Translations under genes and position numbers: made by a program
Part shown: piece by piece, positions 8,089-64,000 of the stretch
Numbering within the stretch: the first letter of the stretch is position 1
Layout: each line of letters starts with the position of its first letter
Notes under the pieces: generated by a model
Databases searched by the model: none
Told to the model about the DNA's origin: nothing
Seen by the model: only the letters and a program-made list of their open reading frames with translations
From: Leuctra nigra
Taxonomy: Eukaryota; Arthropoda; Insecta; Plecoptera; Leuctridae
Direction: 5' to 3'
Length of the DNA stretch: 64,000 nucleotides
NCBI GenBank assembly: GCA_934045905.1
Contig: OW203771.1
Coordinates: 1,364,001 to 1,428,000 of the forward strand

Positions 8089-8113
8089 AAAATCGAAACA
8101 ATTTTAAATAAAA

Positions 8114-10717: not shown

Positions 10718-10721
10718 TTAA

Positions 10722-14749: not shown

Positions 14750-14796
14750 TTTTGTTTAAGTCTTCTGATTCGCATTTAAGGTACCTTATTTGGCTT

Positions 14797-18175: not shown

Positions 18176-18265
18176 TGTATTTACAATAGACATTGAATGT
18201 ACATAAGCATCTAGATGAAGAGATACGTGGAGATTGAATCTTGATATGGACAACATGTCAGGTGA

Positions 18266-25591: not shown

Positions 25592-25704
25592 TTTGTGGTA
25601 AATTTGTGGATTCCTTGTTTGGTCCGTGTAGTGGATGGTTGTGTCTAGCAGTAGCTCCGCATCGTTTCAGTGTATTGACAATTTACTGTGTTATTATCAT
25701 TATT

Positions 25705-26601: not shown

Positions 26602-26617
26602 TACTTGCTTCCAGTTT

Positions 26618-32986: not shown

Positions 32987-33379
32987 TGAATAGAAAAATG
33001 TCTTTAAAAAACCGATGCGCCAAGTCCTTTTGTAAAGTATTTCTCGGTGTTTATACTTTTATTTCAAAGATACGATTAAATATTTGGAAATGTCATTGAC
33101 TTGGCTCCTTTTTTGATATCACTCCTTTTCGGTGTTGAATTTTTTTAAAGTAAAAAGACTTGGCTGCCTTTTTTACACGGAGTGTTTTTTTCTGGGATAT
33201 CACTTCTTTTGTTAGTTTATTCATACAGCTTGTAGCACAGCTTGTGTCCGTGCAAGAACTTATTTCTTTAAAAAAATACGCCTATGCCGATTTGGATACT
33301 TAGAAAAGTTGCGTTTGGTATATAAGATTAAAATAATTATCCAAGAAGAAAAGCTTTAAGTTTCGTTACAATCGGTCCA

Positions 33380-33915
33380 GCCGTTTTCGATATATGACGT
33401 CACTTCCGGTTTTAGCAATGGCGGCCGAAAATAATGTCGTCTTGAATTCATAATTATTACTCCTACACATTTCCAAAATTTGGTTGCAATCGGTACAGCC
33501 GTTTTTGATATATGACGTCACTTCCGGTTTTAACAATGGCGGCCGAAAATAATGTCGTCTTGAATTCATAATTATTAGTACAACACATTTCCAAAATTTG
33601 GTTGCAATCGGTACAGCCATTTTCGATATATGACGTCACTTCCGGTTTTAACAATGGCGGCCGAAAATAATGTCGTCTTGAATTCATAATTATTAGTACA
33701 ACACATTTCCAAAATTTGATTGCAATCGGTACAGCCATTTTCGATATTTGACGTCACTTCCGGTTTTAACAATGGCGGCCGAAAATAATGTCGTCTTGAA
33801 TTCATAATTATTAGTCCAACACATTTCCAAACTTAGGTTGCAATCGGTACAACCGTTTACGATATATGACGTCACTTCCGGTTTTAAAAATGGCCGCCGA
33901 GAACACTGCAACCTT
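33380..33915. repeat. 118-bp tandem array with CRE/ETS/YY1-like motifs (C3)
   Basis: About 4.5 units, period 118 (GGCCGAAAATAATGTCG at 33423, 33541, 33659, 33777). Each unit carries TGACGTCA, then CTTCCGGTTTT, then AATGGCGGCC. The overlapping open frames MAVPIATKFWK... are the array read on the minus strand. Confidence 0.85.
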
Positions 33916-34991
33916 GAATTTATAATTATTTACAAAGTACGTTTACTTATATCTATTTTAAAGTATAAAGTGGTGAATTTAGCGTCATTTAGCATATTTA
34001 TGGCGTCATTTCCGGTATAGGTCATAAAATGTGTGACGTCATTTCCGGTTTCGATATTTTAATCATCAAATATTACTGATTACATAAAGTTGACCGTCTA
34101 AATCGTTTAGCGCTGGTTTTGTTCTAATCTGTTTAGCCGTTTTTGAGACATGATGTCACTTCCGGTTTCAAAATGGCGGCTTCCGGTTGGTTTTATAACA
34201 AGTCAAATGAAATATCAAAAGTACAAACGTTACATAAATATCAAGACAATCGGATCAACAGTTGTTGCTGAAATGCAAATCGATGTATATTAAATTTCAT
34301 GACGTCATTTCCGGTTTATTTAAAATAATGTTCAGTCTTTTGATATTGATAATCCATATAGATGACCGTCTGAAACGATTGGCGCAAATTTCGTTCCGAT
34401 CGGTCCAACCGTTGACGAGATATGACGTCACTTCCGGTTTCAAAATGGCGGCACAAAAAATTCATGGGGACAAGGTTAAATCAGACGCCAAAAGTGCACA
34501 CGTGGTAAAAATGTGAGATCAATCGGTTCAGCCGTTTAGGCTGTGGCCTGTTTACCGGATTTGAATTCCAGGAGACTACTACTACTATGATTATTATTAT
34601 GAAAACCGCCCTAAAACACTGTTTTCACGGCCCTCTAGCGCGCAAAGGGCGTAACCTATTGTTCCCAAATTTGGTATATGTTGTAGGGTGGGCCATAGCT
34701 CGAAATTAAGATATTTCGCAACAATGTGAGATTTCTCAATTTTAAGATCCAGTAGGCCAAAAATGCCACTTTGATGCTTACAGTAAAAGTGGGTTTGCTC
34801 CAGCCTTTATATGAGAGTGTGCGCGCGCCGTACGACTTGGCTGGCGTGGAGCGACCGCTCCACTAGATTTCAAGAGGTTTCAAGTACCTATTTAATTTTA
34901 TTCCTGAGTTTGTTAGTATTCTACCGGGCAAGGGTAGTAGCATCTCAATGCAAAAAGCACAAATACAAAAAAAAAAAAAGAGATTTGTGCC

Positions 34992-36924: not shown

Positions 36925-39900
36925 TCCCAGAAAAAAACACTCCGTGTAAAAAAGGCAGCCAAGTCTCTTTACTTTAAAAAAATTCAACACCGAAAAGGAG
37001 TGATATCAAAAAAGGAGCCAAGACAATGACATTTCCAAATATTTAATCGTATTTTTGAAATAAAAGAATAAACACCGAGAAATACTTTACAAAAGGACTT
37101 GGCGCATCGTTTTTTTAAAGACCTCATTCAATACTAAAAGTGGAAAGAAATTTAAAGTAGGTACATTTTCCTCTTTCTATTAGAGCCAGAAACTATGAAT
37201 CAAGCTACTTTTAGTAATGGCTATTTTATAGTTTTGTCAATGGCGATAGTAGAAAGATTTCATGCTGTAATAGATAAGTAATATAAGGGTGGAAGAATTA
37301 AATAACAATTGGAAGTGGGCTCATACATATTCTTATAGCACTGTTAATATGGTGATATTAGAAGGGTATCTTTTCATACTTTGATCTTGACTGAAGGAAA
37401 TCATGAAACGTTGTCAAATAATTACGAACTGTCTTTGGAACACTATTATATATTTTTGAAGTGTCAAGTGTATAAAGTTAAAATTTTTAATAGAAATTCA
37501 ATGTGACTATGTACTTTGTGAAATGTTTTGTTATAAAATGTGGATTAATAGAAATGTATTTCATGATGAGAAGGTTTAACGCATGAGACTTAATTATGTT
37601 GACCACGATACAATATTACGAAGATAACTAACTATTGTGTATTTATAGAAAACATAGGCAACAAGTTTTATCGCGTACGTACATATTCTAATAGATAATA
37701 TTTTACAGTAGGTATATGTATAATATGTAATTGAAAGATGTTTCCCTTTTATTCTAAAAATTCTAAATTACGGTTGTATATCAATGGCATATGCTTATGA
37801 ATCAAAAAATGAATTTAAAAAACGATGCGCCAAGTCCTTTTGTAAAGTATTTCTCGGTGTTTATTCTTTTATTTCAAAAATACGATTAAATATTTGGAAA
37901 TGTCATTGACTTGGCTCCTTTTTTGATATCACTCCTTTTCGGTGTTGAATTTTTTTAAAGTAAAGAGACTTGGCTGCCTTTTTTACACGGAGTGTTTTTT
38001 TCTGGGATATCACTTCTTTTGTTAGTTTATTCATACAGCTTGTAGCACATGTCCGAGCAGGGACTAATTTCTTTAAAAAAATACGCCTCAACCGATTTGC
38101 TTACTAAGAAAAGTTGCGTTTGGTATAAGATGAAAATGATTATCCAAGAAGAATAGCTTAAGTCGTTATAATCGATCCAGCCGTTTTCAATATATGACGT
38201 CACTTCCGGTTTTGAAATAGCGGCCGAAAATAATGTCGTCTTGAATTCATAATTATAAGTCCTACATAATTGCACAATTTGGTTGCAATCGGTACAGACG
38301 ATTTCGATATATGACGTCACTTCCGGTTTAACCAATGGCGGCCGAAAATAATGTCGTCTTTTTATCCATAATTATAAGTCCTACATATTTCCAAAATTTG
38401 GTTGCAATCGGTACAGACGTTTTCGATATATGACGTCCCTTCCGGTTTTAACAATGACGGCCGAAAATAATGTCGTCTTTAATTCATAATTTTTAGTCCT
38501 CCATATTTCCAAAATTTGGTTGCAATCGGTACAGACGATTTCGACATATGACGTCACTTCCGGTTTTAACAATGGCGGCCGAAAATAATGTCGTCTTTAA
38601 TTCATAATTATAAGTCCTACACATTTCCAAAATTTGGTTGCTATCGGTACAGCCGTTTTTGATATACGACGTTACTTCCGGTTTTAACAATGGCGGCCAA
38701 AAATAATGTCGCCTTTAATCCATAATTATAATTCCTACATATTTCCAAAATTTGGTTGCAATCGGTACAGCCGTTTTCGATATATGACGTCACTTCCGGT
38801 TTTAACAATGGCGGCCGAAAATAATGTCGTATTTCATTCATAATTATTAGTCCTCCATATTTCCAAAATTTGGTTGCAATCGGTACAGCCGTTTTCGATA
38901 TATGACGTCACTTCCGGTTTTAACAATGGCGGCCGAAAATAATGTCGTCTTCAATTCATAATTATTAGTCCTACACATTTCCAAAATTTGGTTGCAATCG
39001 GTACAGCTGTTTTCAATATATGACGTCACTTCCGGTTTTAAAAATGGCGGCCGAGAACACTGCAACCTTAAATTTATAATTATTTACAAAGTAGGTTTAC
39101 TTAATATCTATTTAAAAGTATTAAGTGGTGAATTTTGTGTCAATTATCATATTTATGACGTCATTTAGCATATTTATGACGTCATTTCCGGTATAGGTAA
39201 TAGGAAAACAATCTAGTTGATACTTTATGAACGACCATCTGAATTCATAATCCCTATATTTCCGTGAAATCGGTCTTGCCGTATGTAATATATGACGTCA
39301 CTACCGGTTTCATTTAGTGGTTCCTGCCGCCATTTCCGGTACCGTTAATTTGTTTATTCATTTTTCACAATTGAGTTTCAAAAAAAGTTGCAGAATGAAT
39401 ACGCAGGAGCTAGTTCAGTTGCAAACGGTACAGGCGTTTTAGATATATTACGTCACTTCCGGTTGCAGGAATGGCGGCCGAGAACACTGCCTCCTTGAAT
39501 TTATAATTTGTATTGTCTATGTTACAATGTAAGTTACTTATGTATGTATTTTAAGTATAATTTGTTGAAATAAGTTAAATATTGCGTATTTATGACGTCA
39601 CTTCCGGTTCAGAAAATAAGAAAATAATAATTTTTTTATTGATACTTCATAGAGATGACCGTCTAAATCGAATGGCGCTAATTTCGTTCTAATCGGTCCA
39701 GACGTTTTTTAGATATGACGTCACTTCCGGTTTAAAAATGGCGGCACAAAAAATCACAAGAGGCAAGGTATCATCAGACGCCAAAAGTGCATATGTGGTA
39801 AAAATTTCAGGTTGATCGGTTCAGCCGTTTAGGCTGTGGCGGTGATAGCAACGTTTCCTGATATCTGAATCATCATCATCAGATAGCTTTTAAAAGGGGT

Positions 39901-45942: not shown

Positions 45943-47183
45943 CTAAGAGAATGGAGTTAAATACGCGATGATGGCTGCTCGTTGTGTTGGATCACCATGA
46001 GTGAAGTCAACAGGTCGTTCTCCACTGTTGTTCCGAGCTTTGGCATCAGCACCCAGCTCGTGTAACAGCTTCACAGCTTCTAGTTTACCAGTGGAACTTG
46101 CCCAGTGTAGAGGCGTCGACTCGGCATTGTTCTTCACTGAGAGGTCAGCGCCTTGTTGATGGAGGTATCTTATGACATCGAGATGACCTTGCTGACTTGC
46201 CCAGTGTAGAGGCGTGTACCCGGCATAGCTTTTCACTGAGAGGTCAGCGCCTTGTTGATGGAGGTATCGTATGACATCGAGATGACCATTCCGACTTGCC
46301 CAGTGTAGAGGCGTGTACCCGATATTGTCCTTTACTGAGAGGTCAGCGCCTTGTTGATGGAGGTATCGTATGACATCGAGATGACCATTCCGACTTGCCC
46401 AGTGTAGAGGCGTGTACCCGATATTGTCCTTTACTGAGAGGTCAGCGCCTTGTTGATGGAGATATCGTATGACATCGAGATGACCTTGCTGACTTGCCCA
46501 GTGTAGAGGCGTGTACCCGTCATTGTTCTTCACTGAGAGGTCAGCGCCTTGTTGATGGAGGTATCTTATGACATCGAGATGACCTTGCTGACTTGCCCAG
46601 TGAATCGCCGTCCACCCTGAAATCATTTGCTAATGAGACGTGTGTGTTTGATGACGTCACGCCACGCTCATGCGAGTAACAGAGGAGTCAACAACTAATA
46701 TCAGTGTACACTTTGAATAAATATTCGTAAAATAATAAATAATAATTAATACAAACAAATGTAAAAAATCACACTTAATTAAAAAAAATTGCTTAAAAAT
46801 CATAAATGCATTCGAAAATCGAAAACTAATAAAAACTAAAATAGAATTTAAAAAATCGCGTAAAAGTCAGAAAAAATATATATTTATTACAAAAATGTAT
46901 TAAACAATTAAATCAAATCAAAGAGCCAAAATATCAAAAATCATACTATCACATCATCAAAATAAAAATAAAAACAAATCAAGTGAAAATCAAAGAATAA
47001 AATAATCGAAAAGATTATGTCTAGGAGGTTCTCACCGCTCCAATCCCCCGCTGATATTGACAGACCGCGACGCTCTACCAGGTACTTGAGATCTTCTAGT
47101 CGGCCTTCTCGAGCTGCCGAGAACATTACTCCTGCTTGTTGTTTCATCCCTTTTCCTTGCAGTTCTGCATCCAATCTTGCATT
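45943..47183 (-). CDS. Ankyrin-repeat protein gene, copy 2 (3' exons)
   Basis: Exons 47036-47183 and 45943-46616. The first is preceded by a TTGCAG acceptor, so it is not the true first exon. It begins NARLDAELQGKG, suggesting a coiled coil upstream, then EGRLEDLKYLVERRG. The donor G|GTGAGA joins the acceptor TTTCAG|GGTGG in phase 1 to read DWSGWTAIHWAS. The second exon encodes six 33-residue ankyrin repeats (TPLHWASQQGHLDVIRYLHQ type) and a cap ending IIAYLTPFS. Repeats 2-5 are almost identical in DNA (99-bp period), showing recent homogenisation. Ankyrin repeats are protein-binding scaffolds; the partner is unknown. Copy 1 at 18.3-19.4 kb has only two repeats. Confidence 0.8.
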
Positions 47184-49440: not shown

Positions 49441-49464
49441 GATATTTGAAATGTTTCCTTCTGA

Positions 49465-50465
49465 ATCGAGTCCATGTCGTTGGCACACCCACCTTCGATT
49501 TAACAATTTTTTTTTAATGCAATCGTTTGTGCTACGTTTGTGCTGGATTGTGCCGTCAATTAAATCGTTTGTGCCGCCTTCCTTACCCCCGTTTTTAGGG
49601 GTTGGTTAGTGGGTGTGCCAACGACATGGTAGCACACCCACTTTCAAAATGTGCCATTTTTATTTTTGCTATCGAAAGATCTTCGTTTGTGCTGGATTGT
49701 GCCGTATTTTTTTTCGTTTGTGCCGCAACCCTTCACCCCCAAATAATTGATACAAAGGGGTGGTTCTAGCACACCCACTTTCAAAATTTGCAATTTTTAT
49801 TTTTGCTATCGAAAGATCTTCGTTTGTGCTGGATTGTGCCGTATTTTTTTTCGTTTGTGCCGCAACCCTTCACCCCCAAATAATTGATACAAAGGGGTGG
49901 TTCTAGCACACCCACTTTCAAAATTTGCAATTTTTATTTTTGCTATCGAAAGATCTTCGTTTGTGCTGGATTGTGCCGTATTTTTTTTCGTTTGTGCCGC
50001 AACCCTTCACCCCCAAATAATTGATACAAAGGGGTAGTTCTAGCACACCCACTTTCAAAATTTGCAATTTTTATTTTTGCTATCGAAAGATCTTCGTTTG
50101 TGCTGGATTGTGCCGTATTTTTTTTCGTTTGTGCCGCAACCCTTCACCCCCAAATAATTGATACAAAGGGGTGGTTCTAGCACACCCACTTTCAAAATTT
50201 GCAATTTTTATTTTTGCTATCGAAAGATCTTTGTTTGTGCTGGATTGTGCCGTATTTTTTTTCGTTTGTGCCGCAACCCTTCACCCCCAAATAATTGATA
50301 CAAAGGGGTGGTTCTAGCACACCCACTTTCAAAATTTGCAATTTTTATTTTTGCTATCGAAAGATCTTTGTTTGTGCTGGATTGTGCCGTATTTTTTTTT
50401 CGTTTGTGCCGCAACCCTTCACCCCCAAATAATTGAAACAAAGGGGTGGGACTAGCACACCACTC
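49465..50465. repeat. 137-bp tandem array, about seven units
   Basis: Unit starts (CGTTTGTGCTGGATTGTGCC) at about 49684, 49821, 49958, 50095 and onward, each 137 bases apart and almost identical; the first units (49485-49680) are diverged. Units contain GCACACCCACTTTC and GCTATCGAAAGATCTT. An inverted pair CCATGTCGTTGGCACACCC (about 49471 and 49612) borders the first unit. The open frame at 50217-50441 is the array itself. Confidence 0.9.
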
Positions 50466-50469
50466 TTAA

Positions 50470-51305
50470 ATTTTCTCCTGCATTTGGACCTCTCTTCTTT
50501 TAACTAATTGATAATTAAATGAAGTTAACAAGGCAATCGGATTTCATAGTTTCACTGAAAACGCTATTTCATTGATTAGAAATATAATTTGCACAATTTG
50601 GTTTGTAATAGTGTGTTTGGAAGATATTTCTTCGATACACTTTTATCCCTCGAACTGGCTGGGTCTTCAAGTGCCAAAATTAAATCATGTATCAATTTCT
50701 TTAGCTCGTACCTATATGACTCCTCATTATATCAGTTATCTTTTTCACTTTCTTAAAACTTTATTATTAGATAATAATATTTGCAAAATTCTTTAGAGAT
50801 GGACGTAAATTTAAAAAAAACGGAAAGGATTTATACCTAGGAAAAAACACACTGATACTGTTTATAAAATAAGAGTTTTAATGCAATTTAATTAATACAG
50901 TTTATTCATAAAAGTGGATAAAAAGAATAATTGATAATCATCTAATGGTATCCACGTTATGGATTTTTAAATGGTAATTAAATACATTTTTAATGTGTAC
51001 AGTCCTTAATCAGGGCTGTTTTCCAGAATACATACCTAAATTATTAATCTTCCGCCTTTTACATCAGAACAAAAATAGCATATTCAGGATTCTCCAGTTA
51101 AAATCCGAAAAACAGCTCGAAAAGAAATAATATTTTCCAATTTTATGGAGCATCTAGGAAACAAACTACCTAATTTTACATTGAATGTGTCCAGTTTGAA
51201 CACAAAGTACAGTTCCGTCGCATGCTTAAAAAAGGCGTTTCTTAGAGCTGGATCAAATCTATGATTGAAAATGTGTATACATCCTTAATTATGAAAGGAA
51301 AAATG
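50470..51305. other. AT-rich DNA between two tandem arrays
   Basis: No recognised gene or transposon end. Confidence 0.5.
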
Positions 51306-51309
51306 TTAT

Positions 51310-51835
51310 GCTAAAACAATGATTTTCAACTGAAGTAGAAATATTACAGTTCTAATTAAACTCCAGTTACTAGTTCTTATAAACATATAATCATTTGTGA
51401 AGAAAGTGAGGCAATGAAAACATTGATTATCAACTGAAGTAGAAATATTACAGTTCTAATAAAACTCCAGTTACTAGTTCTTATAAACATATAATCATTG
51501 GTGAAGAAAGTGAGGCAATGAAAACATTGATTTTCAACTGAAGTAGAAATATTACAGTTCTAATAAAACTCCAGTTACTAGTTCTTATAAACATATAATC
51601 ATTTGTGAAGAAAGTGAGGCAATGAAAACATTGATTATCAACTGAAGTAGAAATATTACAGTTCTAATAAAACTCCAGTTACTAGTTCTTATAAACATAT
51701 AATCATTAGTGAAGAAAGTGAGGCAATGAAAACATTGATTTTCAACTGAAGTAGAAATATTACAGTTCTAATAAAACTCCAGTTACTAGTTCTTATAAAC
51801 AAATAATCATTGGTGAAGAAAGTGAGGCAAATTCT
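51310..51835. repeat. 104-bp tandem array next to the giant ORF's 3' end
   Basis: Five units, period 104 (GCAATGAAAACATTGATT at 51411, 51515, 51619, 51723; the last is cut at 51827). The array ends about 15 bases before the stop of the minus-strand 2294-codon frame, so it would lie in its 3' untranslated region. Confidence 0.9.
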
Positions 51836-51847
51836 GTATTTATACAT

Positions 51848-54800
51848 TTAAATAGTATACACCAATAGATGGCAATTTACTTCCCTTTTACCACTGGTAC
51901 GGGAAGCCTTGGTTTGGACATCATCATACAAGTCCCAACATCCATCAGATCGTAAGCAATGGGCCATATAGTGTCCTACTGCATTTCTGGTTTTTGTCCC
52001 TCTATAACCAACGACACCTCTAAAGATGAAAGGCTTATCGACATTTTTCAAATGCAAACTTTTTGGAATGTCTTCTAGAGTTACAAGAAACTCATCCCTA
52101 ATGTTTGTCTCCTGGTTTAATGGAGTCTCGTCAAGACTGGGATAAGGCTCAACGAGTAAATGCGACATTTCGAGCTGTAGCGTCGACGTTCGGTTTCCAC
52201 TACAATTACAATTGCTCAGCGCATTTAAACACAGTCCTGTTTCTCCCGTTATCCTCTGGTTCAGCAGCGCTTCTACGTCGGCGATGTTCATTTTTGGGCT
52301 GGAGAATGATGCCTGTATTACGTTTACATTGAATTTCCTGTTTCCATGTCGGCAAAGTGCTCCTTCCGAACAAGTATATGACTCGAAGCCACATGGTCTC
52401 GCAGCAAAAAGCCTTTGAGCCATTGCACCTGCATGCATATTGGCATCAATATAATACACATTACTTGGATATGATGTTCCTTGTACTATGTCCTTTAGTA
52501 GCAAAGCCCTGTGTTTGTAGATTGATGCCGTTACGCCTACAGTGTTGACTCCTCTTATGATGTTGTTAAAGTGGTCCTCTTGCTGTTCAACGTAATGTTT
52601 ATACTCATCGCTGTCGCAGTACGCAACAGAAAAGATTTGAGCAATCGAATCAAATGCGCACGTCTGCGACAGCGATATACGGATCCCCTTATCCCTGACA
52701 GCGGTCAATCCCACAGAATGTCCATTTCTCAACAGTCCAATTAATTTGGAAGGGTCTACTTTCTTACCAAGATCGAGATTCAGCCATACCCTCTTGGGAT
52801 CCAAGTGTCTTCTCTTTTTTGGTGGGATGCCTTGACCCCGCCAGTTCTCAGTTTCGAACATTTCTGGATCAACACGGGGTGCAGGATCTTGAACACCAAG
52901 TTGTCCTTGTTGAAGCTGATTGCCAATGAACCGAGGTTGTCCTTGTTGATCATTTAAGTTGTTCATGCATCTCAGGTCAGCCATCACTGAAGGGTGATAT
53001 TGTGAACCAGTTGTTGAACTACACAATCCATGCTGTCCTAGACTATCGCGATGTCCGTTCAATCCATGCTGTCCTAGACTATCGTGATGTCCGGTCAGAG
53101 GGAGCTGTTCTTGATTGTCGCGATGTCCGTTCAATCCATGCTGTCCTAGACTATCGTGATGTCCGGTCAATCCTAGTTGTCCTAGACTATCGTGATGTCC
53201 GTTCAATCCATGCTGTCCTAGACTATCGTGATGTCCGGTCAATCCATGCTGTCCTAGACTATCGTGATGTCCGGTCAATCCATGCTGTCCTAGACTATCG
53301 CGATGTCCGGTCAATCCATGCTGTCCTAGACTATCGTGATGTCCGTTCAATCCATGCTGTCCTAGACTATCGTGATGTCCGTTCAATCCATGCTGTCCTA
53401 GACTATCGTGATGTCCGGTCAGAGGGAGCTGTTCTTGATTGTCGCGATGTCCGTTCAATCCATGCTGTCCTAGACTATCGTGATGTCCGGTCAATCCATG
53501 CTGTCCTAGACTATCGTGATGTCCGTTCAATCCATGCTGTCCTAGACTATCGCGATGTCCGTTCAATCCATGCTGTCCTAGACTATCGTGATGTCCGTTC
53601 AATCGGAGCTGTTCTTGATTGTCGCGATGTCCATTCAATCCATGCTGTCCTAGACTATCGTGATGTCCGGTCAATCCATGCTGTCCTAGACTATCGTGAT
53701 GTCCGGTCAATCCATGCTGTCCTAGACTATCGTGATGTCCGGTCAATCCATGCTGTCCTAGACTATCGCGATGTCCGTTCAATCCATGCTGTCCTAGACT
53801 ATCGTGATGTCCGGTCAATCCATGCTGTCCTAGACTATCGCGATGTCCGTTCAATCCATGCTGTCCTAGACTATCGTGATGTCCGGTCAATCCATGCTGT
53901 CCTAGACTATCGTGATGTCCGTTCAATCCATGCTGTCCTAGACTATCGTGATGTCCGTTCAATCCATGCTGTCCTAGACTATCGTGATGTCCGGTCAGAG
54001 GGAGCTGTTCTTGATTGTCGCGATGTCCGTTCAATCCATGCTGTCCTAGACTATCGTGATGTCCGGTCAATCCATGCTGTCCTAGACTATCGTGATGTCC
54101 GTTCAATCCATGCTGTCCTAGACTATCGCGATGTCCGTTCAATCCATGCTGTCCTAGACTATCGTGATGTCCGGTCAGAGGGAGCTGTTCTTGATTGTCG
54201 CGATGTCCGTTCAATCCATGCTGTCCTAGACTATCGCGATGTCCGTTCAATCCATGCTGTCCTAGACTATCGTGATGTCCGGTCAGAGGGAGCTGTTCTT
54301 GATTGTCGCGATGTCCGTTCAATCCATGCTGTCCTAGACTATCGTGATGTCCGGTCAATCCATGCTGTCCTAGACTATCGTGATGTCCGTTCAATCGGAG
54401 CTGTTCTTGATTGTCGCGATGTCCATTCAATCCATGCTGTCCTAGACTATCGCGATGTCCGTTCAATCCATGCTGTCCTAGACTATCGTGATGTCCGGTC
54501 AGAGGGAGCTGTTCTTGATTGTCGCGATGTCCGTTCAATCCATGCTGTCCTAGACTATCGTGATGTCCGGTCAATCCAAGTTGTCCTAGACTATCGTGAT
54601 GTCCGTTCAATCCATGCTGTCCTAGACTATCGTGATGTCCGGTCAATCCATGCTGTCCTAGACTATCGTGATGTCCGGTCAATCCATGCTGTCCTAGACT
54701 ATCGCGATGTCCGGTCAATCCATGCTGTCCTAGACTATCGTGATGTCCGTTCAATCCATGCTGTCCTAGACTATCGTGATGTCCGTTCAATCCATGCTGT

Positions 54801-57800
54801 CCTAGACTATCGTGATGTCCGGTCAGAGGGAGCTGTTCTTGATTGTCGCGATGTCCGTTCAATCCATGCTGTCCTAGACTATCGTGATGTCCGGTCAATC
54901 CATGCTGTCCTAGACTATCGTGATGTCCGTTCAATCCATGCTGTCCTAGACTATCGTGATGTCCGTTCAATCCATGCTGTCCTAGACTATCGTGATGTCC
55001 GGTCAGAGGGAGCTGTTCTTGATTGTCGCGATGTCCGTTCAATCCATGCTGTCCTAGACTATCGTGATGTCCGTTCAATCGGAGCTGTTCTTGATTGTCG
55101 CGATGTCCATTCAATCCATGCTGTCCTAGACTATCGTGATGTCCGGTCAATCCATGCTGTCCTAGACTATCGTGATGTCCGGTCAATCCATGCTGTCCTA
55201 GACTATCGTGATGTCCGGTCAATCCATGCTGTCCTAGACTATCGCGATGTCCGTTCAATCCATGCTGTCCTAGACTATCGTGATGTCCGGTCAATCCATG
55301 CTGTCCTAGACTATCGCGATGTCCGTTCAATCCATGCTGTCCTAGACTATCGTGATGTCCGGTCAATCCATGCTGTCCTAGACTATCGTGATGTCCGTTC
55401 AATCCATGCTGTCCTAGACTATCGTGATGTCCGTTCAATCCATGCTGTCCTAGACTATCGTGATGTCCGGTCAGAGGGAGCTGTTCTTGATTGTCGCGAT
55501 GTCCGTTCAATCCATGCTGTCCTAGACTATCGTGATGTCCGGTCAATCCATGCTGTCCTAGACTATCGTGATGTCCGTTCAATCCATGCTGTCCTAGACT
55601 ATCGCGATGTCCGTTCAATCCATGCTGTCCTAGACTATCGTGATGTCCGGTCAGAGGGAGCTGTTCTTGATTGTCGCGATGTCCGTTCAATCCATGCTGT
55701 CCTAGACTATCGCGATGTCCGTTCAATCCATGCTGTCCTAGACTATCGTGATGTCCGGTCAGAGGGAGCTGTTCTTGATTGTCGCGATGTCCGTTCAATC
55801 CATGCTGTCCTAGACTATCGTGATGTCCGGTCAATCCATGCTGTCCTAGACTATCGTGATGTCCGTTCAATCGGAGCTGTTCTTGATTGTCGCGATGTCC
55901 ATTCAATCCATGCTGTCCTAGACTATCGTGATGTCCGGTCAATCCATGCTGTCCTAGACTATCGTGATGTCCGTTCAATCGGAGCTGTTCTTGATTGTCG
56001 CGATGTCCATTCAATCCATGCTGTCCTAGACTATCGTGATGTCCGGTCAATCCATGCTGTCCTAGACTATCGTGATGTCCGGTCAATCGGAGCTGTTCTT
56101 GATTGTCGCGATGTCCGTTCAATCCATGCTGTCCTAGACTATCGTGATGTCCGGTCAATCCAAGTTGTCCTAGACTTTCGTGATGTCCAGTCAATCCAAG
56201 CGGTCCTTGATTGTTGGAATGTCCGGTCAATCGGAGCTGTTCTTGATTGTCGCGATGTCCGTTCAATCCATGCTGTCCTAGACTATCGCGATGTCCGGTC
56301 AATCCAAGTTGTCCTAGACTATCGTGATGTCCGGTCAATCCAAGTTGCCCTAGACTTTCGTGATGTCCGTTCAATCCAAGTTGTCCTAGACTTTCGTGAT
56401 GTCCAGTCAATCCAAGCTGTCCTTGATTGTTGGAATGTCCGGTCAATCCAAGCTGTTCTTCATTGTCGGGATGTTCGGTCAATCCAAGCTGTTCTTGATA
56501 ATCGTGATGTTCGGTCAATCCAAGCTCTTCTTGATAATTCTGATGTTCGGTCAATCCAAGCTGTTCTTGAGTGTCGTTAAGGACAGTGATATTCTGTCCT
56601 AAATGACTATCTCTTGGAGGATGTGACGATGTCGTAATCGGAGGTCGTGGTGCTCCAGCAAGCTTCAGCTTCCCTTTATTAGATGTTATGTGGGCGTTTA
56701 GGAAGTCATCAATGCGCATGGGTAAGGGGATGTTGCCCATCCGATGTTTCACGTCATTGAAACTGCTTTCCACTGGTGCACTGGAAGCAGTTTTCTCTCC
56801 ATATCCGAAATATGGAGTCATTACTGCCGTGACCAGTGGTAGCTTCTGGAACAGGATGGTTATTGATGCTGTAACTTCTGGTAAGTATTCATGGTTGGCG
56901 CGGTCTCCTTTGATGTTTGCAGGTTGTATGCACGATGATGTAAGCTTTTCTATCCAATTTTTATATGGGTTACCGTCGATCATCAATGCATCTTGACTGG
57001 GGAGGTCTAATTCATCTGCTTCTTCCTCGTCCCTTTTGTCCCAAGATTCAAGAAAATCGTCTAGATTAGCGAACCCAAGACCCATTTTCTGTATCAGGGC
57101 TTTCTTAGCAAGCTCACACGGAACTTCTAAGCCCGTTGTTAAGTCACGCCCTTCCCATGCGCCCAAAGCCACTGTGAATAGTGCTTTCAGCAATGATTCA
57201 ATCTCTTGCAGACTTGAGCACTGCAGCACTTGAGCAACAGCATCCAAGTAAAACCCTCTCATGCGCCTGTCCTTACCTTTCAGAGCTGGCCAACCTGATA
57301 TGCTTTTCATTACGTGAGCAATATCACAGCGGATGAAGCATTCGGGCAGCTTCAATTCATCCTCTCTGCCCACAAGGACCTTCGAGCATTCGAAGAGATA
57401 ATCGGATAAAGATTTGAAGCGAGTGAATGCCTGTGCAGTTGCTGATAGTAATGCCACGGACATGTCACATACAACTTCCTTGGGTACTGGGGCACCGTCA
57501 CGCACCCACTTGCTCAACCAACAGTAAATGCTGATAGTGTCGTGTAGCTCTGACAACATATTGCTTACCGAGTACTGCTGAGCGGACATGTTGTCATTTA
57601 CTGTTGCCTCGTACAGAAAAATGTGACCACTTATCGATCCGTCTTCTCTTCTTATTTTATGAACAACGCTACCAGTAGCATCAATGCACAGCCTGGAAAC
57701 AATTGATTGACTGCAGTATTGTTTGTACACATGGAGTTGAGCATTACTCCAATAATGTACAAAAAATTTGTCAATCCCCACATCTTTAATTATCCCCGAT

Positions 57801-58732
57801 AATGTGCTTCTCTTTGCCATTACAATCGCTTGTACTGGGTTCTTGTGGAGTCTTGCAGCTTGAAGTCCCTTCTTTTTTGCAAGGCGAAGTTGATTAAGGT
57901 TAGGGAGATGAGCTGGTTCGCAGTCTCCCAACTCCATCAGCCTGTTAGCTTCCTGACGGCGGTAGCTGCATGCTGGCAAATTCCGCAAGCAAAGACTCTC
58001 CTGCGCTGCCTTACGAGCACTACCAGATAAGTGTCTTTTTAAATGTAAGGCGTGCTCTGAACTATATGCGCCAATATACTTGCATTGAAGTAATACTCTT
58101 GAATCTTGTGTGTCAGGTTCACTGGCTAACACACCCGAGAATGTAGATTTGCACTCCATACATGACCCGGTAATAACAATGTAATTTTCCCCATTGGGTG
58201 TCACCCTCGAATTTTTAAATGTTAACTTACATGGTAATTTAGTGTGACTCCAGAAATGACCATTAATAATGTGACTCCAATGATTAGGTGTGAGGATTTC
58301 ATAGCGTCTACTGTGGTTATGTTTTGCGTCACTGTTATATTCAATTTCAGATGGTTTCATTGAAGACCATTCTTCTGCTGACAATGTAATGGTAAAATTC
58401 TTTGCAGTCGTACTGGGTTCCGTTTCAGAATTGCTGTTATCATTCAAGTCTTCAGTAGTGAAATTATTTTCATTCTCCCCAGAGAAACAACTATCTGTCG
58501 GCTGTACTTCGCTAATACCTAATAAGTTAAGAATATTATATCGATTACACTTAACAATTGTGTATAAATATTTGGGTGTCAGTTTGTACTCTAATTTTTT
58601 CGAAATTGTTTTCCAAATTTCCGCTGCTGGAAACGCGATTTTATCAGGAGAGTCAGCACTGATGATTCCATTTCTTTCTTCAAGAACTGCTTTTTGTATG
58701 ACCTCAGCATCTACTTTTGGTGTTTTTGGCAT
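51848..58732 (-). CDS. Mutator/NOF-like transposase fused to a repeat array and a USP-like protease
   Basis: One uninterrupted 2294-codon frame from ATG at 58732. Residues 1-110: a small N-terminal domain and acidic linker. About 130-240: a Cys/His-rich region (CMEC, then C-x9-H-x4-H spacing) that may bind zinc. About 300-690: a DDE-type core with Asp351 (CIDATGSVV), Asp423 (VCDMSVALL), C469-x3-H473 (CDIAHVMK) and Glu655 (APVESSFNDVKH), the Mutator-like order also found in NOF of Drosophila Foldback. About 719-1905: roughly 98 units of 12 residues, GHHDSLGQHGLT/N or GHRDNQEQLPLT. About 2000-2294: a peptidase C19 (USP)-like domain with Cys2025 (QTCAFDSIAQIF), finger-like CSEGALC and CNC, His2254 (GHYMAHC) and Asp2270/2271 (LYDD). 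An acceptor-like TTTACAG precedes the ATG. Whether it is mobile or domesticated is unknown; I saw no TIRs around it. Confidence 0.8.
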   Translation of the reverse strand: MPKTPKVDAEVIQKAVLEERNGIISADSPDKIAFPAAEIWKTISKKLEYKLTPKYLYTIVKCNRYNILNLLGISEVQPTDSCFSGENENNFTTEDLNDNSNSETEPSTTAKNFTITLSAEEWSSMKPSEIEYNSDAKHNHSRRYEILTPNHWSHIINGHFWSHTKLPCKLTFKNSRVTPNGENYIVITGSCMECKSTFSGVLASEPDTQDSRVLLQCKYIGAYSSEHALHLKRHLSGSARKAAQESLCLRNLPACSYRRQEANRLMELGDCEPAHLPNLNQLRLAKKKGLQAARLHKNPVQAIVMAKRSTLSGIIKDVGIDKFFVHYWSNAQLHVYKQYCSQSIVSRLCIDATGSVVHKIRREDGSISGHIFLYEATVNDNMSAQQYSVSNMLSELHDTISIYCWLSKWVRDGAPVPKEVVCDMSVALLSATAQAFTRFKSLSDYLFECSKVLVGREDELKLPECFIRCDIAHVMKSISGWPALKGKDRRMRGFYLDAVAQVLQCSSLQEIESLLKALFTVALGAWEGRDLTTGLEVPCELAKKALIQKMGLGFANLDDFLESWDKRDEEEADELDLPSQDALMIDGNPYKNWIEKLTSSCIQPANIKGDRANHEYLPEVTASITILFQKLPLVTAVMTPYFGYGEKTASSAPVESSFNDVKHRMGNIPLPMRIDDFLNAHITSNKGKLKLAGAPRPPITTSSHPPRDSHLGQNITVLNDTQEQLGLTEHQNYQEELGLTEHHDYQEQLGLTEHPDNEEQLGLTGHSNNQGQLGLTGHHESLGQLGLNGHHESLGQLGLTGHHDSLGQLGLTGHRDSLGQHGLNGHRDNQEQLRLTGHSNNQGPLGLTGHHESLGQLGLTGHHDSLGQHGLNGHRDNQEQLRLTGHHDSLGQHGLTGHHDSLGQHGLNGHRDNQEQLRLNGHHDSLGQHGLTGHHDSLGQHGLNGHRDNQEQLRLNGHHDSLGQHGLTGHHDSLGQHGLNGHRDNQEQLPLTGHHDSLGQHGLNGHRDSLGQHGLNGHRDNQEQLPLTGHHDSLGQHGLNGHRDSLGQHGLNGHHDSLGQHGLTGHHDSLGQHGLNGHRDNQEQLPLTGHHDSLGQHGLNGHHDSLGQHGLNGHHDSLGQHGLTGHHDSLGQHGLNGHRDSLGQHGLTGHHDSLGQHGLNGHRDSLGQHGLTGHHDSLGQHGLTGHHDSLGQHGLTGHHDSLGQHGLNGHRDNQEQLRLNGHHDSLGQHGLNGHRDNQEQLPLTGHHDSLGQHGLNGHHDSLGQHGLNGHHDSLGQHGLTGHHDSLGQHGLNGHRDNQEQLPLTGHHDSLGQHGLNGHHDSLGQHGLNGHHDSLGQHGLTGHRDSLGQHGLTGHHDSLGQHGLTGHHDSLGQHGLNGHHDSLGQLGLTGHHDSLGQHGLNGHRDNQEQLPLTGHHDSLGQHGLNGHRDSLGQHGLNGHRDNQEQLRLNGHHDSLGQHGLTGHHDSLGQHGLNGHRDNQEQLPLTGHHDSLGQHGLNGHRDSLGQHGLNGHRDNQEQLPLTGHHDSLGQHGLNGHRDSLGQHGLNGHHDSLGQHGLTGHHDSLGQHGLNGHRDNQEQLPLTGHHDSLGQHGLNGHHDSLGQHGLNGHHDSLGQHGLTGHHDSLGQHGLNGHRDSLGQHGLTGHHDSLGQHGLNGHRDSLGQHGLTGHHDSLGQHGLTGHHDSLGQHGLTGHHDSLGQHGLNGHRDNQEQLRLNGHHDSLGQHGLNGHRDSLGQHGLNGHHDSLGQHGLTGHHDSLGQHGLNGHRDNQEQLPLTGHHDSLGQHGLNGHHDSLGQHGLNGHHDSLGQHGLTGHRDSLGQHGLTGHHDSLGQHGLTGHHDSLGQHGLNGHHDSLGQLGLTGHHDSLGQHGLNGHRDNQEQLPLTGHHDSLGQHGLNGHRDSLGQHGLCSSTTGSQYHPSVMADLRCMNNLNDQQGQPRFIGNQLQQGQLGVQDPAPRVDPEMFETENWRGQGIPPKKRRHLDPKRVWLNLDLGKKVDPSKLIGLLRNGHSVGLTAVRDKGIRISLSQTCAFDSIAQIFSVAYCDSDEYKHYVEQQEDHFNNIIRGVNTVGVTASIYKHRALLLKDIVQGTSYPSNVYYIDANMHAGAMAQRLFAARPCGFESYTCSEGALCRHGNRKFNVNVIQASFSSPKMNIADVEALLNQRITGETGLCLNALSNCNCSGNRTSTLQLEMSHLLVEPYPSLDETPLNQETNIRDEFLVTLEDIPKSLHLKNVDKPFIFRGVVGYRGTKTRNAVGHYMAHCLRSDGCWDLYDDVQTKASRTSGKREVNCHLLVYTI
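53022..56577 (-). repeat. 36-bp coding minisatellite, about 98 units
   Basis: The unit (plus strand) is about CAATCCATGCTGTCCTAGAC plus TATCGTGATGTCCGGT, 36 bases, in frame with the ORF. Older, more diverged units lie at the 5' coding side (56.2-56.58 kb). Two blocks of 39 units (1404 bp) are duplicated: CAATCCTAGTTGTCC at 53168 pairs with CAATCCAAGTTGTCC at 54572. The opposite strand is also open for 1192 codons because no unit has a stop in that frame. Confidence 0.95.
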
Positions 58733-58929
58733 CTCGACCTGTAAATCGTATCATAAAGTTTGTGTATGTTGTCTTCACACTAAAATAAATTTAAAAAAAT
58801 CATATACTATGATTACATACATATTATAATACATTATCATAAATATAATATGATCATATTATTGTTTTAATTGTTTTGAGATATTTTTCATGTATTAACA
58901 CTTTCAAAAAGAAAGTGTACTGTACTTTT
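58733..58929. other. AT-rich upstream region of the giant ORF
   Basis: Holds the putative 5' leader of the minus-strand ORF. An acceptor-like TTTACAG lies 6 bases before the ATG. No recognisable promoter element. Confidence 0.35.
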
Positions 58930-59190
58930 CAAAAATATTTAAAAAGTCAAAATTTTGACCTCGGGGGATAACGCTTTATAAAAATATACAGAAGGGTGTA
59001 TATTTATATCCCATTTACGAATATCAAATCAGATATATAAAATATAATATCGTATTGTCACAGTTATTTGTACAACGTCTCAAAAATTCGCAAAATTATA
59101 CCTCTCTACACACCCCACCCCCCAGGCGCCACAGTGCAGACAAGTAAATATTTACTTAAAATATGACCCTCTATCAAAAAAATATATTAA
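58930..59190 (+). repeat. Left member of a direct repeat flanking the LINE complex
   Basis: Shares TATATCCCATT, ACACACCC...CCAG, GTGCAGACAAGT and ATATGACCCTCTAT in order with 62330-62575, diverged. The pair brackets the decayed LINE and its nested insertions. Confidence 0.55.
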
Positions 59191-59387
59191 ATATTATAGC
59201 GGTTTATGCACCAGACGAATCAAAACCACTGATCTTAGAAAAGGACATATTTTATAGTCAGTTACAGAGGACTGTAGAAGAAATACGACAAGACGACTTA
59301 ATGCTATGCTACTTATGGGAGACTTCAATGCCAGAATTGGAAACCAAGAAATACCTGGAGTAATGCAGCGTTATAACGAAGATGTAG

Positions 59388-61074
59388 ATTAGATTATTAG
59401 GGTTTAACGGCGCGTCAACGACGATGTTATATTGCGCACATTATTTTTACTTTTAACTTTGTTGATCTAAGTGGCGGACATCGGGAGGGGTCGACCTAAC
59501 GGGTACGATCCGGGGAAGTCTGAAACTGGTGGGAAAGCCAGTTCAGAATGGGGACAGACCGGGGGGCGTATTTACGTAGGCTAACTGAATTCGAGACACA
59601 GGTCTCGAATTCGTATAGACTTCGTAGTCGCATTTTGCAACTCCGTAACCTAACTGAATTCGAGACCAACTTCGTCGGTTCTCGGCTGCTTTCGGCTGCC
59701 TTCGTTCTTCCGTGTCTCTATCAGCTGATCGGGTATGCCTGGTTGTCAAAGGAGTTTGCATGCCGTTATAAATCATCATGTCAAATGATATTGATTTAAC
59801 TAAGATTTTGCTTGGTGTTAATAGTACGACCGAAATTAATAAACTTGATTTCGATAGTGAACATCAGTACACTTACAGACTCGAGCAAATCTAAACAAAA
59901 TATAATCATTAATAATGAATCTTGAATTTAATTTTCCGAACTGAGAAATATTTATTGATTTTCATTGATGGTTACATTACATAGTAAATTCTCGTGTAGA
60001 TAAGTAAATGATTTTATATCAGTAAATCTATTCAATGTATGTGTCTTTACTAATGAAACTCTTAAATCAGTTTGAGTGAAAGTGACAATTCGCATTTTTT
60101 TTAAGGAGCGAACATATTCTGTTGCCTACTATTTTTAATGAAGTATTTTTTAATTTTAGGGAATTGTACTTAAATGTGGCACAATGATTCTTTTCATTCC
60201 TTAGAAAATGTTTAAGAAATGAGAAATTACGTGCGGACGGTTATTAATTATATATATGCCTTGTTTTTTCCAAACATAAAAAATAAACACATTGAAATTC
60301 AAATATTCTAACCTACCTTCTTACTGAGAATTTCCCTTCTGCAAAATTATTTCAATATTAATTTATATCTTCTAAAAATATTATTAGTGTCAATATTATA
60401 TTTGTATTTAAAATATAATATTGACACGATAAATTTATGTAATTATCAAGTGAATATTAATGGATAGGGAAATTGTATTACCTATCCCTTTTTGCTCTTG
60501 GTGACTAGCGTAGAACGATATTTTTCTCTAGGTATTTTAATAATATTAATATTGCTAATTTGCTTATATAGATATAATAGCATATTAATGAACAATGTGT
60601 TGCTATTAGTTGATAGAGAAAGAAAATAATTAGTAATACGCGTGAATTCGACATTTAAATTTGAAGTATCCCATATTTAATATCAAGCGTGCGAATTGAA
60701 GACATGTGCAAGCCTCGAAATCAGTAAGGCTGCGGAGTTGGTAAATCTCACTCGGAAGTCTATATGAATTCGAGACTTAAATAGGTCTCGAAATCAGTTA
60801 GGCTACGGAGTTGCAAAATGCGACTACGAAGTCTATGCGAATTCGAGACCTGTGTCTCGAATTCAGTTAGCCTACGTAAATACGCGACCGGGGGGGGGGG
60901 GGGGGGGGGGGGGCTTCGGGCCGGTGGGACCCAATTTCAGGGGGATCACCATCTCGAGGGGGAAGGCCGGCCCGAGGGGCCCACGAATTTAGGGAGGGCA
61001 TGGGACTAGGTCGACCCTGGACTGCACTTAGTCGGGACCACCACCGCGTCAAGGTGGCAGTCCATTGGTGAGGA
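59388..61074 (-). mobile_element. SINE-like S2, second copy, split by a Mutator-like element
   Basis: Flanked by CGAAGATGTA (59378-59387 and 61075-61084). Outer parts 59388-59565 and 60895-61074 match the left and right portions of 12238-12687. Removing it restores the LINE reading frame (MQRYNEDVKNVNEEK). Confidence 0.8.
59566..60885. mobile_element. Non-autonomous Mutator-like element, 1320 bp
   Basis: 102-bp TIRs (59566-59667 and 60784-60885), nearly identical, starting GCGTATTTACGTAGGC. The flanking 9-bp duplication GACCGGGGG (59557-59565 and 60886-60894) is the Mutator signature. The right TIR is followed inward by a diverged tandem copy of its own sequence (about 60700-60783), a common MULE trait. 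The interior is AT-rich and has no gene. Confidence 0.88.
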
Positions 61075-61855
61075 CGAAGATGTAAAGAATGTTAACGAAG
61101 AGAAGATGATAAGGTTCTGTACTAGTAACGAGCCACGCATTAATAATACATTCTTTGATCACAAAGTTCAACATAAATATACTTTTCAAAATACGAGGGG
61201 ATACACATCAATGATAGATTTCATTGTGTCAAATCGTAGCATCCATCCATCCGAGATTTTGGACGTACGGTGTCTGAATTCAGCAGACATCGGTAGTGAT
61301 CACAGTTTAGTACTTGCGAAAATCTGAGTGAAAAGGAAGAGACAGACAGTGAGGAATACGACGAGCGATAGTAAAATCAGAATAGATTCATTGATTGATG
61401 AAAGTACAAGAACGCTGTACAGAAACAGACTATCGGAAAGAATAGAGAATAATGGAATCGAGGAGGATGATGATGTGCAAGTTGTTGGTCGAAGATACAA
61501 GGAAATATAATTGAAGCTGATGAAGCATTAGGAAGAACAACAAGAAAAAAAGGTGCAAGACAGCAGAAGAAGAAACAGTGGTTTTGTTCTGAAGTCAAAC
61601 AGTTAGCGCAGAGAAAAAAAAACAGCGAACCTAGCTTACAAATCAAGTAACGGACTGTATAACGGACCAATAACGGACTGGATCGATCACAGGCGAGAGG
61701 AATGGAACGCCCACATATCAAGAATGATGAAGACAGGATTGTCAGAGTTACACGAGACAAGAGGGTTCGAGGCACAAGGAATGTGGGGAGACCGAGAAAG
61801 AGGTGGAAGGACAGTTTGTAGATCTGGTGAAGGACAGGCACATGTGCCTATTAAG

Positions 61856-61857
<2 letters not shown>

Positions 61858-61889
<32 letters not shown>

Positions 61890-61953
61890 AAGAAGAAGAA
61901 GAAGAAGAAGAAGAAGAAGAAGAAGAAGAAGAAGAAGAAGAAGAAGAAGAAGA
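61858..61953. repeat. (AAG)n microsatellite at the LINE 3' end
   Basis: About 30 AAG units directly after the decayed LINE coding end; this may be its tail expanded. The poly-Lys and poly-Phe frames over it are not genes. Confidence 0.95.
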
Positions 61954-62329
61954 TCAAAAAAATATGGTCGCTGAAAATCCCCATGGGGTGGTGGTGATTC
62001 CGCCCAACATAGTTAAAAACCCCAAAAAGTGGAAGAAATCGAAATTTTGGTTTCGGGGACATATGCAAAATAATTTTTATACTCTTAATGACTACCCCTC
62101 ACAAATGTGATCAATAAACGCACAATATTTTATTCTAATCACATAATATAATTTTTTTTTGAAAATATCCCCAAAAAATTTACATTTTGGCCTTTTGGGA
62201 GATACGTAAGTACTTATTAGGGCCTTTAACCATCTAATATTATCTGCCAAGGTAACTTACTGTTGGTTGATTTAATTTTTTTTTAATTTTCAAAAGCATT
62301 TTAATTTTTTTTAGAAAAAAGTCAAAAAT

Positions 62330-62575
62330 TTTACTTGACGGTAGAAGGGGATATAAAAAAATACTATTCAGTATAGTTTTATATCCCATTACTAAATATG
62401 TGTTCAGAAAGACTCTATCTCTTACCGTCTTTTCACAATTAATTAATTAAATACTCAAAAAAGTCCAAAAATGCCACTTTAAACCCCCCTGTACACAACA
62501 CCCACCAGGGGTCAAAGTGCAGACAAGTGAATTTTCACTTCAAATATGACCCTCTATTAAAAAAATATAGTCACG
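62330..62575 (+). repeat. Right member of the direct repeat flanking the LINE complex
   Basis: Diverged homologue of 58930-59190 in the same orientation (see that entry). Followed by a G-run at about 62588-62604. Confidence 0.55.
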
Positions 62576-62604
62576 GCAAGTCCGCAGGGGGGGGGGGGGG
62601 GGGG

Positions 62605-63820
62605 AGCTCCCACCCTTATCAGCCGATGGACTATACTAGAATGGTTGTGAAAATTTATCTATACCTATTATTGATGACTCCAATTCCTCAAGTACTTAAT
62701 ATTAAAGTACGAAAAGTAATACTTACTACCTAGGTACTACTATCTCTACTACCAAAATTCACAGCATATACGCAACTGGTTACAATAACTGAAGAGGTGT
62801 CATCAAGCATTAAAAAAATAAAAATATTTAAATATTTAAAAACATTTCTGACACTATTTTAGTTGTAAATCTAGTTACATATGCTGGATTATTTTTCGTA
62901 TAATGGTAGGTAATAGAAGAAGGTAAAATATTATAACCTCAGGTCCACTTTGAGTCTGGGGACTGGGGCTTTCGTAATCTACCTACCTACACAGATGGTT
63001 TCCAAAACATTATATCGCACATTCAATATCAAATTTAAACCGAACATTATTTCAATAAATCCGTAATCAATGTCACACAATCACTGTGTCGAAACTACCT
63101 ACCTAGTCATCGAGTAACAGGTAGATTTGCTTGCCCATAAACCGCATTGAATGATGGGAAAAACTGAGCTGAAAATACGATAGGATCCTACAATTTCGTC
63201 AATAATTATTGCAAACTATTGGGTAATTCATCACACTTACCTTCAGTAGTTAATATTGGTAGTTAAATGTGGTAGTTTATATTGTAGTTAAACCATATTA
63301 CTATTAGCAAAACTCCATGAGCCGTGAAGTGTGAACACTAAAATGGCGGTGATGATACGCGTCCTTCTAGACAAAAAACTTAGCTACTACCAACCCACCT
63401 TTTATATTAGTCCATAGAAATGTAAATCATATCTATTATTTAGTAATATTATCTTTAGTTTTTAATACATTTTTACTTTCTGTATATAATAATGACTATC
63501 GTACTGTAATATATGCCATAAATGTCAGCGAAATTCATTATATAGCATTGTTTTCAAGTGTTAATACCCCACTTTCGTATTGTAATGTTGTTTCACCTTC
63601 TATCTGCGCGCGTCGTTTTAATTACTCTGGCGACCCCCGCGACCAATCATAACGATTTACAGCTTGCCTCCAAATTCAAATTTATGCGCGCGGTGACAAT
63701 CTTAAACATAAAAACTGAAAAACTTCTAACATAAAATAGTATTATTGGGAATGTACTCCCACATCCTTTGGCCTAATGTCTGCAACAATTGTCAGACATT
63801 CTATGGGAACCAGCTCACAT
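62605..63820. other. AT-rich DNA without recognised gene
   Basis: Only short frames. Local repeats of TAGTTAATATTGGTAG/TGTGGTAGTTTATATTG type near 63235-63290. No transposon ends seen before 63824. Confidence 0.45.
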
Positions 63821-63823
63821 TAT

Positions 63824-64000
63824 CTAGTGGAGCGGTGGCTCCACGCCAGAAGAAACCTAAAAATTTAGCACTGAAAAGTAGGGATATAAAAAAATGGGCC
63901 AAGTCAAATTAATTTTAAAAACCAAAATATACTTGGCGCATCATTTTTTAATAAAGGGCATTATAGGTATATTATATATATATATTGAGGTTCATTTGAT
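63824..64000 (-). mobile_element. Helitron-like family C, short copy C6, cut by window end
   Basis: The minus-strand 3' hairpin (GTGGAGCC/CGCTCCAC region) then CTAGAT is at 63824. It is joined by internal deletion directly to the 5' inverted-repeat arm (CTTGGCGCATC near 63932). The remainder lies beyond 64000. Confidence 0.6.

Follow-up and report, generated by a model that had tools for sequence, protein, structure and literature searches.

The stretch of DNA analysed here, 64,000 nucleotides of the genome of the plecopteran insect Leuctra nigra (contig OW203771.1, positions 1,364,001 to 1,428,000; hereafter the window, in whose coordinates positions are given unless another locus is named), carries on its minus strand a gene, P0001, whose single open reading frame (ORF) is predicted to join a transposase with a DDE catalytic core to a ubiquitin-specific protease (USP) by way of a linker built mainly from a 12-residue repeat. 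In our judgement this gene very probably belongs to a complete, probably autonomous and recently mobile foldback-type transposon, a Mutator-like element (MULE) of a NOF-like branch, in which a hypervariable linker separates the predicted DDE and USP domains.

The gene and the element that carries it

The ORF (51848–58732, minus strand) runs from an ATG at 58732 to a TAA at 51848 through 2,294 codons without interruption. A first-pass annotation of the same DNA had read an intact 2294-residue frame here without naming a strand; the frame stands, and the minus strand can now be added. It is not a product of chance, because the flanks of the repeat array comprise 1,154 codons without a stop, where about 71 stops would be expected from base composition. 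The openness of the array alone is weak evidence, since repeating a unit that has no stop and is divisible by three in length always leaves an open frame; the strand opposite the array is likewise open, for 1,192 codons.

Where, then, does the unit that contains this gene begin and end? Within 47–64 kb of the window no convincing gene-enclosing inverted repeats were found, only one 18-nt pair (I14, 89%) of chance quality; no enclosing pair lies inside the window because the right end is 3.6 kb beyond it, and the ends could be located only via other copies. A search for such copies and for terminal inverted repeats, proposed in the first-pass annotation, yielded both: two further copies, on contigs C7 and C4, and the ends of the element. 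Comparison of the three loci shows similarity from 49468 to past the right edge of the window, and delimits a minus-strand transposon of 18,124 bp (49468–64000, and on to 67591, 3,591 bp past the window end). The window copy is called C10 below. Its tips are GAGTCCATGTCGTTGGCACACCCACC and the reverse complement of GAGTCCATGTCGTTGGCACACCCACC, and it is flanked by a perfect 9-bp target-site duplication, TTCTGAATC, at 49459–49467 and again after the right end at 67592–67600. The left terminal inverted repeat (49468–50637, ~1.2 kb) and its partner beyond the window (about 65764–67591, ~1.8 kb) are 97.7% identical over the outer 1,004 columns and consist largely of 137-bp units in tandem, 6.1 copies on the left (49630–50461) and 11.0 on the right; a perfect 21-nt inverted repeat in turn frames the left tip (49472–49629). 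Unit number varies among the copies, with left/right counts of 6/11 in C10, 8/6 in C7 and 8/7 in C4. Foldback elements have long inverted repeats with internal tandem repeats and Mutator elements make target-site duplications of 8–10 bp (PMC3573991 for the former, PMC6446971 and PMC4079207 for the latter). The anatomy is thus a foldback plan, with long inverted repeats of tandem units variable in number, combined with a target-site duplication of Mutator length.

The other two copies testify to recent movement. C10 measures 18,124 bp, C7 23,389 bp (left tip at 10705443 of its contig) and C4 28,677 bp, the latter two being longer by inserted DNA; an initial reading of C4 as lacking its left end was abandoned when that end was found upstream, behind other DNA. 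Over six non-array segments totalling 11,111 bp the copies are 98.9–100% identical. Between C10 and C7 these segments show 21 substitutions and 17 gap positions; between C7 and C4 they show one substitution and two gaps of a single base. The segment with the lowest identity is 951 bp long and reaches 98.9% when C10 is compared with the other two. All three copies have perfect 9-bp duplications, each different (GCGAGCTTT in C7 and ATAAGTTTC in C4), and it is because two near-identical copies have their own, different duplications that we regard movement as recent. C7 and C4 share a 5.6-kb insertion at codon 126, at whose edges a 4-base repeat of the gene sequence is found, so both derive from a single copy that was already interrupted and has since moved at least once. 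In C4 the frame is also shifted, ahead of the array, by a 1-base gap. Of the three, only the window copy retains an ORF free of interruption. Most simply, an intact copy like C10 would have moved the others in trans, though a shortened product of the interrupted gene may have been the mover instead. Between C10 and C7 the coding flanks differ by 2 changes in 3,516 bp (one synonymous, one I187V) and the non-coding DNA by 19 in ~7.6 kb (7,671 bp; Fisher p 0.033, calculated with 7,609 bp of non-coding sequence), which is weak evidence of constraint. The copies were sought by the gene start in one genome, and their number is at least three, a lower bound.

Two smaller features share the transposon with the gene. 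A 104-bp minisatellite of 5.0 copies (51313–51830) starts 17 bp past the stop codon and is constant at 5.0 copies in all three elements, unlike the array inside the gene, and a small nested element with 114-nt inverted repeats (59559–60892) is also present in C7 and C4, where it holds a further insert. As for the insertion in the C7 gene (L007:891-6489), a 300-nt direct repeat without mismatch occurs in it at 890 and again at 5245, and a Pfam search of its 541-codon frame returned no convincing match.

A transposase core joined to a USP-like domain

In the Mutator superfamily the second Asp and the Glu of the DDE triad are separated by a stretch that holds a C/D(2)H motif. In the window protein the DDE core, of the RNase H-like type by alignment and predicted fold, spans residues 347–664 (56741–57694, minus strand), with D351, D423 and E655 as the triad and D470-x2-H473 as the Mutator motif. 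The first-pass annotation had pointed to a C-x3-H before the Glu; C469 and H473 are indeed present, but the pair conserved in the family alignment of 26 proteins is D470-x2-H473 (among rows with a letter, 24 of 24 have D and 24 of 25 have H), whereas C469 is Cys in 10 of 24. The predicted fold of the N-terminal half is an RNase H-like DDE core, with ISCth4 as best match, and would relate the protein to IS256-type transposases. Just one viral protein, from a bracovirus (O92526, E 1.4e-9), matches this model at E below 0.001.

At the other end of the protein, residues 1993–2294 (51851–52756, minus strand) form a USP-like domain by alignment and predicted fold. Ubiquitin-specific proteases account for all 50 Foldseek matches listed for the C-terminal model, which is predicted to adopt the papain-like fold with thumb, palm and fingers. 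C2025 is present in 15 of 15 aligned rows. The His of H2254 and the Asp or Asn of the D2270 position are each found in 14 of 15, the exception being a truncated row whose protein stops early, and three relatives have the Asn. We take the catalytic roles of these three residues to be those of known USPs. Four finger cysteines, putative zinc ligands, are similarly conserved (C2121, C2168 and C2177 in 15 of 15 rows, C2127 in 14 of 15). In Pfam, the relative P0011 matches UCH at 27.6 bits (gathering threshold 23.9), and the window protein has no UCH match. The domain resembles known USPs of peptidase family C19, such as USP30, USP46, Ubp8 and USP36, in its fold, Cys box, His box, Asp/Asn and four finger cysteines, and differs from them in being compact, with 229 residues from Cys to His, and in its identity of 9–18% to the 50 matches listed. 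A search with the USP domain alone against the protein database gave nothing at E <= 1 among 984 candidates, a search that admitted only proteins of ~180–570 residues and so excluded the long relatives.

Relatives, a family profile and predicted folds thus bear out both domain claims of the first-pass annotation, a Mutator/NOF-type DDE transposase and a USP-like protease, and the separate structure predictions that it suggested for the two halves gave the two folds expected. The positions that it listed for D351, D423, E655, C469 and H473 and for the motifs QTCAFDSI (2023), GHYMAHC (2253) and LYDD (2268) are all correct.

Is the fusion special to this gene, as had been supposed? It is not: the order transposase-then-USP is common to 14 aligned long relatives, one of them labelled NOF-FB, and the USP Cys box is found in 14 of 14. 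In a tree of 20 transposases the window protein pairs with its nearest relative, P0004 (support 100/100), which has no array, and P0017, P0021, P0023, P0032, P0033 and P0037 split from the rest (100/100). A tree of 14 USP domains has the same window–P0004 pair and, for the rows in both trees, the same deep split, and also recovers the pairs P0005–P0006 and P0019–P0020 of the transposase tree; 7 of the 11 internal forks in this second tree stay open, and its long branches join one another. Because the domain order is shared and the trees of the two halves agree where they are resolved, the USP was most likely already present in the common ancestor of the family, an old part inherited with the transposase. 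In the linker, a finger-like cysteine pattern is found in 10 of 21 relatives and Pfam Znf_SCAND3 in 3 of 26; one regular expression for the finger pattern found none in the window linker. Searches of viral contigs with the window protein and, separately, with P0004 found no relative, nor did a search of genome and viral contigs with query A3.

The linker array and the surrounding DNA

The linker is dominated by a coding minisatellite of 95 in-frame units of 36 bp, or 12 residues, in exact register (residues 765–1904; 53021–56440, minus strand), preceded in the protein by four degenerate units (residues 717–764; 56441–56584, minus strand). The array reported in the first-pass annotation is therefore real, with 99 units in place of the 'about 98' counted there. 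The commonest unit is GHHDSLGQHGLN, from which the distinct codon variants depart in 16 non-synonymous and 5 synonymous ways. His makes up 225 of the 1,140 array residues, and the calculated net charge is about −64 at pH 7.4 and +39 at pH 6.0.

Three assembled copies show this minisatellite to be hypervariable, although assembly error in repeats is possible. C10 has 95 units, C7 52 and C4 48; every length is a multiple of 36 and none of the 195 units contains an in-frame stop. The first four units match across the copies in both type and order, and the last unit has the same ending in each; in between, the order differs. C7 and C4 have at most 7 units in an unbroken common run (shuffles at most 6), and their longest common subsequence covers 30 units of 48 (in shuffles 21.5 on average and 26 at most); for C10 and C7 the values are 8 (shuffle maximum 7) and 34 (shuffle maximum 33). 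C10 and C4 have a longest common subsequence of 36 (shuffle maximum 35), and their shared run is no longer than chance, being 6 where shuffles reach 8. In other words, the arrays are related but heavily rearranged, though elsewhere the copies hardly differ. Exact repetition within the window array extends over at most 903 bp, between stretches offset by 41 units.

With both landmarks located by pattern, 1,371 residues separate the DDE Glu from the USP Cys in the window protein, versus 133–340 in 22 relatives, and the best linker self-identity at any lag is 0.75 versus at most 0.27 in the 21 relatives with a measurable linker. Among proteins of ~1,260–4,010 residues none matched the window N-terminus at E <= 1e-5 (7,985 candidates scored), which is no proof that relatives with expanded linkers are lacking, and a 23-mer of the unit found no relative in viral and genome contigs. 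Since the measured relatives have no array and the copies differ, the protein probably tolerates the array without depending on it. Two Pfam matches over the repeat were set aside as compositional: LED_rpt, and Collagen (PF01391, E 3.5e-50), for which the unbroken Gly-X-Y triplets are missing, the commonest unit having no Gly at its fourth residue.

Elsewhere in the window lies a second foldback-type element of 13.1 kb (5085–18175), with inverted repeats of ~1.26 kb (5092–6351 and 16907–18168, 88% identical) made of palindromic 36- and 133-bp units, and with a 9-bp duplication, TGTATTTAC, at 5076–5084 and 18176–18184. Its right tip starts GAGTC, as in the main element, and its left tip differs; tblastn found no match to the transposase family in it, and between its inverted repeats no stop-to-stop frame exceeds 110 codons. 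A non-LTR retrotransposon (24272–29584) has an ORF with PHD and Baculo_FP_2nd domains (25606–26601) and an endonuclease–reverse transcriptase ORF (26618–29584), and a second reverse transcriptase frame lies on the other strand (24272–25591). A 118-bp repeat forms two arrays in the same orientation (33361–33930 and 38170–39054) within a longer stretch that is ~90% alike, and a 227-codon minus-strand ORF (45943–46626) consists mostly of 99-bp ankyrin repeats, 93% alike.

Known systems, alternative readings and meaning

Among the closest known systems is NOF/FB-NOF, a foldback element of Drosophila, a likeness drawn via the aphid protein P0016 (Macrosiphum euphorbiae), which UniRef labels 'NOF-FB transposable element protein'. 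It is 32% identical over 99% of the N-terminal 700 residues and has the same transposase–USP order; its distance from Glu to Cys is 252 residues, versus 1,371 here. The long inverted repeats with internal tandem repeats are those of foldback elements. Rehavkus, which is Mutator-related, is described as having 9-bp duplications, one ORF and a minisatellite either C-terminal or before the 3′ inverted repeat (PMC6446971), and is thus alike by description, with minisatellites here both inside (36-bp) and after (104-bp) the ORF; its inverted repeats, in contrast, are given as 26–400 bp (PMC6446971), versus 1.2–1.8 kb, and it has a PHD finger, where a search with one pattern found none in the window linker, though 10 of 21 relatives show a finger-like pattern there. 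Phantom, a Mutator group of animals and insect viruses with duplications of 8–10 bp where given and a post-ORF minisatellite in aphids (PMC6446971), is likewise similar by description only, as an animal Mutator-like element of matching duplication size with a minisatellite after its ORF, and the transposase model has the bracovirus match given above; the main text of PMC6446971 has no words starting with protease, peptidase or ubiquitin. Unions of a transposase with a ubiquitin- or SUMO-cleaving cysteine protease have precedents in Ginger1, whose Gypsy-like integrase occurs with OTU, Ulp1 or PHD, and in a Trichomonas protein that joins transposase_11 to peptidase C19; the authors propose that such proteases act in transposition and repair (PMC2836005). 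These are other transposase families, and here a USP accompanies a Mutator/IS256-like core. In the part of the literature covered, no paper describing a USP in a NOF-like Mutator element came to light, from which absence from print does not follow.

Several observations weigh against our reading of the locus as a complete mobile element with two predicted catalytic domains. TM-scores to PDB chains indicate loose global superposition, at 0.18–0.26 for the five best transposase rows and 0.36–0.51 for the USP model. Pfam on the window protein alone returns only Collagen and a sub-threshold LED_rpt, both on the repeat, so that the domain assignments rest on relatives, profile and predicted folds. 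Only three copies were seen, in one genome, even if that count is a lower bound. Finally, the solved structures with a USP fold among the listed matches belong to proteins that act on different modifiers (ubiquitin, ISG15, SUMO or Fubi), so the fold does not reveal the substrate of the USP.

How do other explanations fare? An element that has recently died, its protein made useless by the huge array and its copies moved by a shorter-array copy absent from or unfound in the genome, is unlikely in our view, yet carries appreciable weight: the window array is the longest of the three, the nearest outside relative has no array, and the other two copies are interrupted, one of them also frameshifted. 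Against this, 2,294 codons are open with both catalytic sets complete, and not one unit in the three copies has acquired a stop. Might the array instead do something useful, as a pH- or metal-responsive multivalent linker, rich in His, Gly and Gln, that gathers transposases on the repeated ends? Its histidines and computed charge shift would suit such a role, as would the multivalency of the inverted repeats, with 6–11 units of 137 bp, but we consider it improbable given that neither unit number nor order is conserved between copies, that the relatives' linkers are barely self-similar and that non-synonymous unit variants outnumber synonymous ones.

The remaining two alternatives fare worse. 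That the array is an intron, or the USP a separate gene, is very improbable, as start, DDE core, USP and stop share one uninterrupted frame, the relatives likewise hold both domains, in that order and much closer together, in a single protein, and all array differences are multiples of 36 bp. Domestication, in which the transposase–USP would serve the host and the array be a functional part of it, had been offered in the first-pass annotation; the intact frame, the catalytic residues retained by relatives and the lower divergence of the coding flanks speak for it. This reading was given up once the ends of the element were located, and we now assign it hardly any probability: the gene sits inside a complete element with tips, inverted repeats and target-site duplication, near-identical copies lie on two other contigs with duplications of their own, and array length and order vary between them.

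For the mobile element that we favour, a mechanism can be sketched. The transposase would bind the repeated units of the inverted repeats, cut at the tips and insert with a 9-bp stagger, while the USP would strip ubiquitin from the transposase itself, or from chromatin or repair proteins at the break. Of the possible roles for the USP we tentatively rank protection of the transposase first and action on chromatin or repair proteins a close second; it may also act on another substrate or process its own product. A linker without fixed structure would tolerate the array, and repeat-mediated exchange or repair synthesis could change the array in steps that are multiples of 36 bp, by which the reading frame is kept. 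Going further, one might speculate that a whole animal Mutator-like branch uses an active deubiquitinase as a fixed part of transposition, and that in this lineage the linker is reshuffled at about each round as repair synthesis scrambles the arrays of ORF and inverted repeats alike; we think this rather unlikely, but if it is true, each insertion encodes a transposase of different length.

Deubiquitinase-like domains on other transposase groups are already known (PMC2836005), as are minisatellites in or after the ORF in Rehavkus and aphid Phantom (PMC6446971); what is unusual in the window protein is the long, fast-rearranging repeat linker between transposase and USP. Earlier links between transposases and ubiquitin or SUMO proteases are scattered examples from other superfamilies (PMC2836005). 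Here the association looks old and inherited with the transposase, its predicted active site is kept, and it occurs in a group near NOF whose biology is, in our judgement, little known. The three copies offer a natural experiment on a coding minisatellite whose rate of change far exceeds that of the surrounding DNA, and the element makes a question testable: must a transposon remove ubiquitin to move?
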